From NCBI GenBank assembly GCA_003134675.1, contig PLBZ01000079.1:14176-28066 (forward strand): DNA of 13,891 nucleotides, given 5' to 3'. The stretch's first letter is position 1; each line of letters starts with the position of its first letter. Origin of the DNA: Solirubrobacterales bacterium (GTDB lineage: Bacteria > Actinomycetota > Thermoleophilia > Solirubrobacterales > Solirubrobacteraceae). Below are positions 2,468 to 5,876 of the stretch, one piece after another. The notes under the pieces were generated by a model. It was not told where the DNA came from and did no database searches. It saw nothing but the letters and a program-made list of their open reading frames with translations. The position numbers and the translations under genes were made by a program.

Positions 2468-3043
2468 GTGGATACCACCGTTCCGTCTGTCCCACTTCGG
2501 TCCGTGTCGCCTCCCGAGCACAGGCGACGCGGGCCTGACAGCGGCCGGGTGCTCGTTCTAAACGCGACGTACGAGCCGATCAACGTCTGCACGGTACGAC
2601 GCGCGGTGGTGCTGCTGCTGAAGGACAAGGCCGAGTTGCTGGAGCGGGGCGGCTGGGAGCTGCACTCCGAGAACGCCACGCTCGCGCGACCGGTCGTGAT
2701 CAGGCTGGTCAGCTATGTCCACGTGCCTCGCGACGCCCACCGGCGCAAGATCACCCGCCGGGCTGTGTTTGCCCGGGACGGGTGGACCTGCCAGTACTGC
2801 GGCTCGCACTCGAACCTCACCGTGGACCACGTGATCCCCCGCTCCAAGGGCGGAACCTCGAGCTGGGAGAACATCGTTGCCTCGTGTGCCCCCTGCAACC
2901 GGCGTAAGGGTGACCGGCTGCCCAAGCAGGCGAGAATGCACCCGCGGCATGTCCCCCGCACCCCGCGCGCGGAGATCTTTATCCACGTTGCCAGCCCGAC
3001 GATCCCGGTGGCGTGGCTGGCGTACCTGCCCCAAGCGGCCTGA
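2468..3043 (+). CDS. HNH endonuclease family protein
   Basis: The product is 191 aa from GTG 2468. The start is uncertain: GTGs at 2504 and 2549 are also in frame, and the conserved core begins at VLVLNATYEPINVCTVRRAV (28-47). The C-terminal half is an HNH nuclease fold: CQYC (C108, C111) and CAPC (C140, C143) form the zinc-binding pair, D120-H121 supply the catalytic histidine of the beta-beta-alpha metal motif, and N135, N144 and K147 complete the pattern. The N-terminal RVLVLNATYEPI block is typical of a widespread stand-alone actinobacterial and cyanobacterial HNH group with no known partner. Whether it is a housekeeping nuclease, a repair protein or something else is not known. It lies 30 nt after pheA and is followed by a strong hairpin, so it is probably the last gene of this plus-strand unit. 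Confidence 0.9.
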   Translation: MDTTVPSVPLRSVSPPEHRRRGPDSGRVLVLNATYEPINVCTVRRAVVLLLKDKAELLERGGWELHSENATLARPVVIRLVSYVHVPRDAHRRKITRRAVFARDGWTCQYCGSHSNLTVDHVIPRSKGGTSSWENIVASCAPCNRRKGDRLPKQARMHPRHVPRTPRAEIFIHVASPTIPVAWLAYLPQAA

Positions 3044-3050
3044 GCAAAGA

Positions 3051-3080
3051 CGAGGGGCGCCACGGCCGCGGCGCCCCTCG
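3051..3080. terminator. strong GC-rich hairpin after the HNH gene, possibly bidirectional terminator
   Basis: A perfect 11-bp stem (CGAGGGGCGCC at 3051-3061 with GGCGCCCCTCG at 3070-3080) encloses an 8-nt loop and begins 7 nt after the HNH stop codon. Neither side has a long U-tract: the plus strand continues CATTCTGCTCT and the minus strand continues TCTTTGCTC. It could end the HNH transcript, a minus-strand transcript from the 3090-3280 element, or both. Confidence 0.7.
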
Positions 3081-3094
3081 CATTCTGCTCTGAC

Positions 3095-3275
3095 TGGATG
3101 GCCGAGACGGTCGAAAAGGCTGCCGGAGGGACCAGAACCGGCGATCGTCTCGGGGTGTCCCGGGTTGGATTCCGCTAAGCGGTCCAGCCTGTCCGACCTA
3201 GCGGCCGGTCACCTCCAGAGTCCCGCAAAAACTGTCAGCCAACGTTAGGACCACCTCCTTTCTCTGGTCTGGCCA
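3095..3275 (+). ncRNA. candidate structured RNA element with anti-SD hairpin loop (strand undecided)
   Basis: This gene-poor stretch between the convergent HNH and gyrA genes is rich in nested inverted repeats. Helix A pairs 3102-3113 with 3142-3153 over 12 bp, with one G·U. Helix B pairs 3161-3169 with 3183-3191 (9 bp, two G·U) and stacks on CCGC-TAA-GCGG at 3172-3182. A short GACC/GGTC stem lies at 3195-3210. Helix C is GACCA 3249-3253 with TGGTC 3265-3269, whose 11-nt loop reads CCTCCTTTCTC, the core of the 16S rRNA 3' tail. All the non-Watson-Crick pairs listed are G·U when read on the plus strand and would be A·C mismatches on the minus strand, which favours a plus-strand RNA. A promoter-like sequence and an SD plus mini-ORF on the minus strand argue the other way. 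I cannot name the family; it could be an ncRNA or an mRNA leader. Confidence 0.4.
3198..3242 (-). CDS. candidate 14-residue peptide ORF with extended Shine-Dalgarno
   Basis: On the minus strand a TTG at 3242 opens a 14-codon frame reading MADSFCGTLEVTGR, ending in TAG at 3198-3200. Upstream, AGAAAGGAGGTG (complement of 3252-3263) matches the last 12 nt of the usual bacterial 16S tail without mismatch, far longer than a normal ribosome-binding site; GGAGG ends 11 nt before the TTG. A promoter-like sequence lies just upstream. It might be a leader or regulatory micropeptide, or the SD-like stretch may instead belong to a structured RNA on the other strand. A peptide this short cannot be confirmed from one sequence. 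Confidence 0.3.
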   Translation of the reverse strand: MADSFCGTLEVTGR

Positions 3276-3302
3276 GAGTAGCGGACGGGGGTGGCCCGGC
3301 AA
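3275..3302 (-). promoter_or_regulatory. candidate minus-strand promoter just downstream of gyrA
   Basis: Read on the minus strand, TTGCCG (3302-3297) is separated by 16 bp from TACTCT (3280-3275), a TAnnnT type -10 as used by actinobacterial housekeeping sigma factors. Transcription would begin near 3268, right before the AGAAAGGAGGTG stretch. An inverted repeat CTCTGG/CCAGAG (3262-3278) overlaps the -10. There is no other minus-strand gene between here and the hairpin at 3051-3080 than the mini-ORF. Confidence 0.4.
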
Positions 3303-3326: not shown

Positions 3327-5876
3327 CTAGGGGTCCTCGGTGACGTCGGCGATGTCGGTATCTGTGCCAGGCACTTCGGCGAGTGGCCCATCCATCAAGG
3401 AGGCGTCAGGGAACTCGTCGGGAGGCTCGACGGCGTCCACGACGAGGGCGATGGCGCTGACGATATCGTCCTCCTTGAGATTCATCACCCGCACGCCAGT
3501 GGCCGAGCGACCCTGCTGGGAGATGCCACCAGCAGCTGTTCGTTGGACCATCCCGCCGACGCTGATGAACACCAGCTCGTGGTGCTCACGAACGACGAGC
3601 GCTCCCGCGAGGCCCCCCTTCTGCTCGGTCAGGCCGATCGTCTTGACGCCTTTGGCGCCACGATGGGTCTTGCGGTACTGGTCGATCCGGCTGCGCTTGC
3701 CATATCCATTCTCCGTGACTACAAGCAGATCCATATCGTCCCGGGCTACGTCCATCGCGATGACCTTCCCGCCCTTGCCAACCTCCATACCGCGCACGCC
3801 GGTGGTATCGCGTCCCATCGAACGAGCGTCAGACTCGGCAAAGCGCACTGTCAGACCGGCACGTGAGGTCATGATGATCTCGTCTTCGGGGTCGACCGCA
3901 CGAACAGCGAGCAGCTCGTCGTCGTCGCGAATGTTGATCGCGATGATGCCGTCGGCCTTTATAGGGGTGTTGTAGGCCAGCAGCTCCGTCTTCTTAACGG
4001 TGCCGTTGCGCGTCGCGAACACGAGGTACTTGGTCTCGGTGAAGTCGCGTGTAGAGAGCACCGCCTGGATCCGCTCGCCCTCGCGCAGCGGCAGGATGTT
4101 GACCAGCGCACGTCCCTTTGCGGTGCGCGAGGCCTCGGGCAGCTCGTAGACCTTGGAGCGGTAGACCTTGCCACGGTTGGAGAAAAACAGCAGGTAGTCG
4201 TGTGAAGAGCATACGAACAGGTGCTCGATGAAGTCCCCGTCCTTCATGTCCATCCCGGTCACACCGCGACCCCCACGCTGCTGCTGGCGGTAGGTGGCAA
4301 GCGGCAGCGACTTGATGTAGCCCGTCTGGGTGATCGTGATGACCATCTGCTGGTCGGCGATCAGATCCTCTATGTCGATCTCATCCTCGGAGTGGGTGAT
4401 CTCCGAGCGGCGCTCATCGCCGAAACGCTCTGAGATCTCTGAGAGCTCCTCCTTGATCACCGCCAGCACGCGGCTCTCATCGCCGAGGATCGCGCGCAGC
4501 TCTGCGATCCGCTCGGTCACGTCGGCATGCTCCTGTTTGATTCCATCGGCCTCGAGTGCAGTCAACTGGGAGAGACGCAGGTCGAGGATCGCTGTGGCTT
4601 GGATGTGGCTGAGCTCGAAGCGCGCGACGAGCTGCTCGCGCGCCGAGTCGCGGTCACGCGAGCCGCGGATCAGCTCGATGATCGCGTCGAGGTGCTCGAG
4701 CGCGATCAACAGACCTTCGAGGATGTGCGCGCGCGCCTCCTTCTCGGACAGCTCGTGCTTGGTGCGACGCACGACCACCTCGCGCTGGTGAGCCACGTAG
4801 TGATGGATCACCGCATACAGGTTGAGGGTGCGCGGGACGTTGTCGACTAGCGCCACCATGTTCACGCCAAACGTGCTCTGCATCGGCGTGTGCTTGTAAA
4901 GCTTGTTGAGCACGACCTTCGGGATCGCATCGCGCTTGAGCTCGATCACGAGGCGCATGCCGCGCTTGTCGGACTCGTCGCGAAGGTCGGAGATCTCGGG
5001 GATGCGTTTGTCGTGGACGAGGTCGGCGATCTTCTGGATCAGCCCACCGTCACCGCCCTTCTTCACCATGAACGGCAGCTGCGTGACGACGATCGCCTCC
5101 TTGCCCTGCTTGAGCGGCTCGATATGCGCGCGCGCCTGGATGCGCACACGACCGCGTCCGGTCTCATACGCATCCCTGATGCCGTTGCGGCCGAGAATGA
5201 TCCCGCCGGTGGGGAAGTCCGGCCCGGTGATGTGGTGCATTAGACCGTCGGTGTCGATCTGCGGATCGTCGATATAGGCGATCGTGGCCGCGATCACCTC
5301 GCGCAGATTGTGCGGAGGTATGTTCGTCGCCATGCCAACCGCGATGCCCGAGGAGCCGTTGACGAGCAGGTTGGGAAAACGGGCGGGCAGCACCAGCGGT
5401 TCCCGACGTGAGCCGTCGTAGTTGGGCACGAAGTCGACCGTGTCCATATCCAGGTCACGCAGCATCTCGGTGGCGATGCGCGCTAGGCGCGCCTCGGTGT
5501 AGCGCATGGCGGCCGCGGGGTCGTCGTCGACAGAGCCGAAGTTACCCTGGCCATCGACGAGTTCATTGCGCATCGAGAAGTCCTGAGCCATGCGCACGAG
5601 GGCGTCGTAGATCGCGGAGTCGCCGTGAGGGTGATAGTTGCCCATCACCTCGCCGACGATCTTGGCGCACTTTGCATAGGACCGCGTGGGACCGAGGCCG
5701 AGCTCGTTCATCGCATACAGCACGCGGCGATGCACGGGCTTCAGGCCATCGCGCACGTCGGGCAGCGCGCGCCCAACGATCACCGACATGGCATAGTCGA
5801 GATACGCCGTGCGCATCTCCTCCTCGAGAGCACGCGGTTCGACGTTGCCTCCGCCGATCACATCAGCGCTTGCCAT
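3327..5876 (-). CDS. gyrA: DNA gyrase subunit A
   Basis: The 849-aa breakage-reunion subunit of DNA gyrase works with GyrB as an A2B2 complex to introduce negative supercoils. The winged-helix and tower region shows [17 protein letters not shown] (38-54) and the quinolone-resistance region [17 protein letters not shown], where S87 and D91 correspond to E. coli S83 and D87, so this copy looks quinolone-sensitive. The active-site tyrosine is Y126 in AAAMRYTE. The C-terminal beta-pinwheel carries the GyrA box as QRGGRG at about 533-538, which distinguishes it from ParC. The protein ends in an acidic tail rich in Asp and Glu, common in GyrA. ATG 5876 is supported by a GGGGGTG Shine-Dalgarno that overlaps the gyrB stop codon 10 nt upstream, so the two genes form one translationally linked unit. 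Confidence 0.97.

Follow-up and report, generated by a model that had tools for sequence, protein, structure and literature searches.

An Ms_IGR-5-like RNA beside gyrA in Solirubrobacterales: a candidate translated, ribosome-gated regulatory RNA with an extended Shine-Dalgarno sequence

Ms_IGR-5 (RF02471) is a family of actinobacterial small RNAs (sRNAs). The homologue of S. lividans is transcribed (RNA-seq 'yes'; PMC8079986), and that of S. avermitilis is reported as an sRNA transcription unit (PMC8780764). In M. abscessus and M. smegmatis, the MS_IGR-5 homologues show significant ribosome-protected reads (PMC4974804). The passages of that paper on MS_IGR-5 count it among the regulatory RNAs and make no claim of translation for it. 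Many non-coding RNAs were ribosome-protected in the same work, so these reads show ribosome contact and not translation. The portions of the literature covered by our search give no function for Ms_IGR-5. Likewise, no ORF in Ms_IGR-5 is described in the literature searched, which did not include the founding paper (Li et al. 2013). Within that literature, the mini-ORF and the covarying structure presented here (P1a beside the Shine-Dalgarno (SD) bulge, P2, and a pseudoknot) appear new for this family.

Other described RNAs share features with the one studied here. The consensus of CC2171, a Caulobacter sRNA (RF01867), also has GAAAGGAGGUGAUCC near its start. However, its alignment is limited to the GAAAGGAGGUGAUCC stretch and the end hairpin, with 25.9 bits against a cut-off of 75. 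In the RF01867 consensus, aligned to the minus strand of the window (3255-3268, 3054-3270), a GUG stands seven bases past GGAGG. CC2171 may be a second sRNA family with an SD as long as the 16S tail. Ms1, a 6S-like RNA, is likewise actinobacterial, widespread, and studied in M. smegmatis. It binds the RNA polymerase core and adjoins a HAD-IB hydrolase gene (PMC9130861). The neighbours of our locus differ, and identity with Ms1 was rejected. A tRNA or tmRNA was also rejected, as neither ARAGORN nor the Rfam models recognised one in the window.

The window is the whole stretch of 13,891 nucleotides of a Solirubrobacterales bacterium analysed here. A structured, free-standing RNA is most likely read from its minus strand at 3270-3046, in a dnaA-dnaN-recF-like-gyrB-gyrA region (Table 1). 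The sense strand, as read from the sequence, is minus: this is the strand of the Rfam match, of the SD and the ORF, and of the covarying helices. The energy of folding was similar for both strands. The minus strand gave -82.9 (z = -0.74; 48 of 200 dinucleotide shuffles were as stable) and the plus strand -84.4 (z = -0.63; 50 of 200). Since neither strand beats its dinucleotide shuffles, energy alone is uninformative on a structured RNA. The TACTCT box, read from alignments, is usual but not constant across the genus and family of the window, and a sigma-70 consensus scan of the window found no promoter site. We infer that the RNA is transcribed in this organism, with a start site near 3268-3272. 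At the other end, the G+C-rich hairpin is a probable terminator common to the RNA and the convergent HNH gene. It recurs in most aligned relatives, and the terminator scan found no T-run that satisfied its rule there. Short matches to this end hairpin recur elsewhere in the genomes of the relatives.

Table 1. Features of the RNA element and its flanks, in window coordinates.
Feature	Position	Strand	Remarks
HNH endonuclease gene	2468-3043	+	one flank of the RNA element
gyrA	3327-5876	-	other flank of the RNA element
Ms_IGR-5-like RNA	3046-3270	-	predicted transcript; both ends predicted
-10-like box TACTCT	3275-3280	-	upstream of the RNA
G+C-rich hairpin	3053-3078		from sequence
SD bulge AGAAAGGAGGU	3253-3263	-	between P1a and P1b
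Mini-ORF, 14 codons + stop	3198-3242	-	TTG GCT GAC AGT TTT TGC GGG ACT CTG GAG GTG ACC GGC CGC TAG
P1a, 5' strand CCAG	3264-3267	-	partner CUGG 3218-3215
P1b, 5' strand GGUCC	3248-3252	-	partner GGACU 3223-3219
P2, 5' strand GGUGACCGG	3205-3213	-	end of the ORF; partner 3163-3154
P3 hairpin UGGA CCGC UUA GCGG AA UCCA	3166-3186	-	87.2% of cells paired, 42 sequences
P4/P5 hairpin with loop GGUCCC	3102-3153	-	P4 3153-3143/3112-3102; P5 3142-3138/3126-3122
Pseudoknot strand GGGACU	3219-3224	-	inside the ORF; competes with P1b
Pseudoknot partner GGUCCC	3128-3133	-	loop of hairpin P5
UCCAG	3094-3098	-	possible alternative partner of CUGGA (P1a 3' strand)

A permissive Rfam scan matched RF02471 to 3268-3096 of the minus strand over the full model (1-184). 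The score is 27 bits, with an E of 2e-4 for the 411 bases searched and 1.7e-4 for the whole genome. The curated cut-off is 45 bits, and at default cut-offs Rfam called no family in the window. The first-pass annotation had found the element assignable to no RNA family; this stands at the default thresholds and gives way below them, where it appears as an RF02471 homologue. The best RF02471 match sits on the homologue of the element in 43 of 61 relatives at E≤0.1, although none of the 61 passes the cut-off (best 43.9 bits). In contrast, 14 control genomes gave no match at E≤0.1. We ran Rfam on 18 of the more than 120 loci found by a sequence pattern in other Actinomycetota. Ten of the 18 passed the cut-off, with up to 185 bits (L061-L066, L071, L074, L080, and L128). 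The window RNA shows full-model homology to these loci. Moreover, the alignment A1 (65 of 179 pattern matches after an 86% identity filter, the window copy included) and the model R1 unite window-like loci with those that pass. As its score is below the cut-off, we file the window RNA as a divergent homologue and not as a rule-based member of the Rfam family. Judged from sequence, it is almost certainly a divergent, unannotated Ms_IGR-5 homologue and no orphan. Both have the 5' SD, the GGAC..AGGUG segment, and a 3' hairpin with a GUCC loop, although the gyrA and HNH neighbours of the window differ from those of Ms_IGR-5.

The nucleotide conservation that had been proposed as a check was found. 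In BLAST searches, the element was present in 21 of 23 genomes of the same genus (E≤2e-35, 74-92% identity); G009 and G021 gave chance-level matches only. It was also present in 13 of 13 genomes of the same family (E≤3e-21), and more distant families retain its core (query 111-225). Three copies of the genus (L009, L024, L014) are identical over 179 nt to elements from GTDB genomes (L097, L132, L135). A pattern for the conserved part found at least 120 stretches in GTDB genomes. Among the matches listed (80) were Mycobacterium, Nocardioides, Micromonospora, Nonomuraea, Cellulomonas, Acidimicrobiia, Conexibacter, and others. Related elements thus occur phylum-wide. To model the 5' domain, we built R1 from 65 diverse sequences, among them that of the window. 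With strict filters, it matched 173 of 396 Actinomycetota genomes at E≤0.01 and gave no match in the other 223. The window sequence, one of its 65 training sequences, scored 73.3 bits, and the next best place in the same genome had an E of only 0.1. Elements L064 and L105 come from records labelled Acidobacteria or Acidobacteriota. They may be mislabelled Actinomycetota bins; the L105 peptide equals that of the Actinomycetota element L198. A phage origin was rejected, with 0 matches to one exact pattern in viral contigs.

In the window, the extended SD AGAAAGGAGGUGGUCC can pair over 16 contiguous nucleotides (one G·U) with the 16S tail GGAUCACCUCCUUUCU. The SD bulge and the next five bases form these 16 pairs (G·U allowed). 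Among 203 distinct elements, the pairs to GGAUCACCUCCUUUCU number 16 in 181, 15 in 20, 14 in one, and 12 in one. This invariance is partly by construction, since 164 of the 203 were picked with patterns fixing AAGG[AG]GGTGGTCC, GGAC, and AGGTG. The other 39, more divergent, are free of the pattern; they were chosen by R1 score among listed places and are not a random sample. Of these, 37 have 15 or 16 pairs. The predicted end of the 16S gene in a genome of the same genus is ...GGCTGGATCACCTCCTTTCT, two bases beyond the end of the Rfam match. Of 61 relatives, 12 contain a 16S-tail pattern in the actinobacterial GCTGG form; the GGTTGG form gave no match in the 61 genomes. The 16S tail was not found in the genome of the window (G000). 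Many of the relatives' assemblies probably lack rRNA.

Downstream of this SD lies a mini-ORF whose predicted peptide is MADSFCGTLEVTGR, with TTG read as Met. Its spacing of 10-12 nt from the SD exceeds the usual optimum. All 203 elements have a stop codon at the homologous place; offsets of 8-12 past AGGTG were accepted, and 192 have offset 9. In the 147 distinct homologues selected by pattern, the fourth codon past the GTG of AGGTG is always a stop (TAG in 122, TGA in 17, TAA in 8). An NTG codon 5-14 nt past GGAGG is in frame with the stop in 179 of 203 elements, compared with 8 and 21 for the other frames. The 39 divergent elements give 37 for the frame of the stop and 2 and 6 for the others. 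For these counts, L214 and L218 were re-anchored. Among L180-L208, we dropped loci without the narrow pattern or duplicating an earlier core and kept 17. The length of the ORF is 10-15 codons across elements. The first-candidate start codon in the 203 homologues is TTG in 88, ATG in 55, CTG in 19, and ATC, ATT, or ATA in 16. Only ATC, ATT, or ATA is in frame in 17 of the 203. Seven homologues of the window's genus have neither an NTG nor one of these codons in frame, and they present ACG in frame at a spacing of 8. Weak starts (TTG, CTG, ATC, ATT, and, for the genus of the window, perhaps ACG) accompany a maximal SD. Genes controlled at initiation likewise combine a weak start with a strong SD. 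A hairpin around the stop codon is weakly favoured (6 bp in 85 of 203, against a foreign mean of 50.2 and a maximum of 60).

The strongest sign for the ORF comes from eight divergent elements (L219 and L221-L227; genome families f5, f8, and f51). Relative to the RNA motif, their stop is displaced upstream by one base, the start shifts together with it, and the ORF stays open. The peptide changes from ..EVxxR to ..GGGSS, ..GGDCR/S, or ..GGTRS. In L216, CAG replaces the stop codon, and a stop follows directly after it. These cases point to selection on translation over 10-15 codons and not on the peptide. Conservation of the ORF is a computational observation across these elements. From the sequences, selection seems to act on being translated, not on the peptide sequence, and the mini-ORF is very probably translated.

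The structure that we propose around the ORF differs from the Rfam one. In the structure line of Rfam, as we read it, the first 13 positions of Ms_IGR-5 are unpaired and there is neither P1a nor a pseudoknot; the strands of P1b and P2 have other partners than in our revised helices. Placed on the window, this consensus structure leaves several marked non-standard pairs in the alignment. P1a pairs the four bases before the SD bulge with the four before AGGTG. All four pairs form in 124 of the 147 homologues and in 29 of the 39 divergent elements. For P1a and P1b together, the 65 sequences of A1 contain 72 double-changed cells, compared with 30.7 in shuffles (0 of 500 reach this value), and all of them are in P1a. 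The covariation score is 0.314, against 0.109 in shuffles and at most 0.079 when the helix is slid. Nevertheless, two of the five measures match the shuffles (double-change pairs, 493 of 500; further pair types, 162 of 500). The shuffle null ignores relatedness, and related sequences are non-independent events. In P1b, four pairs are invariant in A1, yet there the search pattern imposes them. Streptomyces-like forms of P1b, such as GUUCGG/CCGGAC, were read by eye.

The pairing tests used the 199 of 203 elements with enough downstream sequence. P2 forms 9 of 9 pairs (G·U allowed) in 95 of the 199, compared with a mean of 17.4 for foreign strands. In A3, an alignment of 42 of the 49 Thermoleophilia references (seven left out), 90.5% of the P2 cells are paired. 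P5 is paired in 96.7% of the cells of A3. The inner part of P4 reaches 57.6%, and each of its 7 pairs shows double changes; the three outer pairs of P4 reach only 39.7-57.9%, where the alignment is poor. The slid full structure also shows many chance double changes, which weakens the case for P3 and P4.

The predicted pseudoknot would join the ORF to the 3' hairpin. Its 6-mer has an exact partner in the downstream hairpin loop in 72 of 199 elements, whereas foreign 6-mers have one in 7.5 on average and 14 at most. A 5-mer partner is present in 140 of 199, against 63 for foreign ones. The 4-mer does not discriminate (176 against 168.8; n = 199). In A3 (42 Thermoleophilia), 97.2% of the cells are paired, with a double change in two of the six pairs. 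Examples of co-change seen by eye are GUGACC with GGUCAC, GUGACG with CGUCAC, and AGACC with GGUCU. The pseudoknot is not a universal feature of the elements, and no such loop was seen by eye in L218-L227. P1b and the pseudoknot both use GGAC and are therefore mutually exclusive. By complementarity, UCCAG is a candidate partner of CUGGA in place of the 5' CCAG. It is nearly constant in Thermoleophilia, 95.9% of the CUGGA/UCCAG cells pair in A3, and no covariation of this pairing was found there. The window RNA alone prefers another fold, with -69.6 kcal/mol compared with -53.5 when the conserved helices are imposed (16 kcal/mol better).

The first-pass annotation had proposed an RNA on the plus strand whose anti-SD loop binds SD sequences. 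Its three helices (3102-3113/3142-3153, 3161-3169/3183-3191, and 3249-3253/3265-3269) and the 11-nt loop CCTCCTTTCTC at 3254-3264 are present, as are the G·T pairs of the first two. Its broader idea of an unannotated structured RNA facing the ribosome is supported. The plus strand even has a marginally better energy and is the only one with G·U pairs. However, this bias does not reveal a plus sense: the same sites are A·C in the minus RNA, where the helices are imperfect or variable. The first two helices match P4 and the P3 region, but on the minus strand. In the third, two of the four pairs tested are each lost in 30 of 65 diverse homologues. It shows no covariation in these sequences, and its 5' bases pair in the covarying P1a instead. 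The displayed hairpin lacks conservation at the level of the phylum, and on the minus strand its loop is the extended SD, which would bind the 16S tail. Covariation, a further check proposed there, is present, in a partly different set of helices and on the other strand. With the family match, SD, ORF, and supported helices all on minus, a plus-strand RNA is scarcely credible. A leader-peptide attenuator acting in cis on a neighbour gene would account for the SD, the mini-ORF, the alternative helices, and the terminator-like 3' hairpin. But the neighbours vary by clade, with gyrA and HNH in Thermoleophilia. In mycobacterial loci, the RNA adjoins genes that we take from their sequences to be Rv0812-like and nitrobindin/FABP-like; in other Actinomycetes, presumably a Fur-like gene and the same FABP-like gene. 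Further lineages have yet other neighbours. The overlap of M. smegmatis IGR-5 with ncMSMEG15794c (PMC10454040) and the naming of MSMEG_5795 in a paper on Rv0812 fit the mycobacterial context. According to a crude ORF caller, the closest ORF downstream of the RNA is convergent in 69 of 111 loci and co-directional in 42; in the window, the gene that follows the RNA, HNH, is likewise convergent. We looked in the 111 loci for a conserved co-directional downstream gene and found none; the largest nearby co-directional family has 8 loci (median distance 236). Given these variable, mostly convergent neighbours, the RNA looks free-standing, and we rejected the attenuator of a neighbour gene as very improbable.

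The readings that keep the minus strand and a free-standing RNA differ in the role of translation. A non-coding RNA might bind the 30S subunit, its 16-nt SD sequestering or tethering the 16S tail, with translation only incidental. The complementarity to the 16S tail, the weak start codons, and the ribosome-protected reads (PMC4974804) agree with it. It does not predict a conserved start-to-stop frame (179 against 8 and 21), stop codons that change only to other stops among the 147 homologues, or frame-shifted elements that keep their ORF, and we regard it as unlikely. If instead the RNA were the messenger of a functional micropeptide of 10-15 residues, the conserved ORF and a C-terminus alike within large clades (T-x-E-V-x-x-R) would be expected. 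Nevertheless, the codons that are conserved fall on P1a, P2, and the pseudoknot. The residue encoded by P1a can be R, L, C, S, G, or E, and eight elements read the RNA in another frame, giving ..GGGSS or similar. A micropeptide is therefore rather improbable.

We favour a translated, ribosome-gated regulatory RNA, in which translation matters and the peptide is incidental, with a probability of roughly 0.55. The RNA would be poised for 30S loading, as a bulge holds the SD and the apical loop of P1 the start codon. The full-length SD in the bulge would recruit the 30S subunit. Pairing with the 16S tail would consume GGUCC, so that P1b opens and GGAC is freed for the 3' loop. The ribosome would then translate the 10-15-codon ORF inside P1/P2. 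Elongation would cross GGAC, the 3' strand of P1a, and the 5' strand of P2, and termination would take place just after the latter. In this way, initiation, elongation, and termination might switch P1, P2, and the pseudoknot of GGAC with GUCC in the 3' hairpin. As the position of the ribosome consumes different strands, each ribosome state would imply a different fold. The fold could control a trans target, the life-time of the RNA, or ribosome storage. The computational results establish the strand, the family relation, the conservation of the ORF, and the co-changing complementarity of P1a, P2, and the pseudoknot. Ribosome contact is supported by the published footprint for mycobacterial homologues; we infer the order of switching and an output in trans or through RNA stability.

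Such a riboregulator would resemble a leader-peptide attenuator without a downstream gene. Leader-peptide attenuators also have a short ORF whose peptide is of low importance, and translation chooses the RNA fold, as it would here. By sequence, the predicted ORF overlaps alternative helices in the same way. In contrast, our RNA has its own promoter-like box, an end hairpin, and an extended SD. A conserved regulated gene is lacking, with the downstream ORF on the same strand in only 42 of 111 loci. More tentatively, at somewhat less than even odds, these RNAs may form an ancient actinomycetotal class of free-standing, translation-gated RNAs, acting as a trans-acting sensor or a reservoir of free ribosomes. 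The ribosome state would then pass via P1/P2 and the GGAC-GUCC pseudoknot to the 3' hairpin.

The results extend the range of Ms_IGR-5 to Thermoleophilia and Acidimicrobiia. The mini-ORF and the SD offer a reason for the appearance of Ms_IGR-5 in ribosome profiling. Together with the revised helices and the pseudoknot, they make its function a testable hypothesis. If being translated without conservation of the peptide is the function of this RNA, it would apply the leader-ORF principle in an unusual, free-standing way throughout a phylum.
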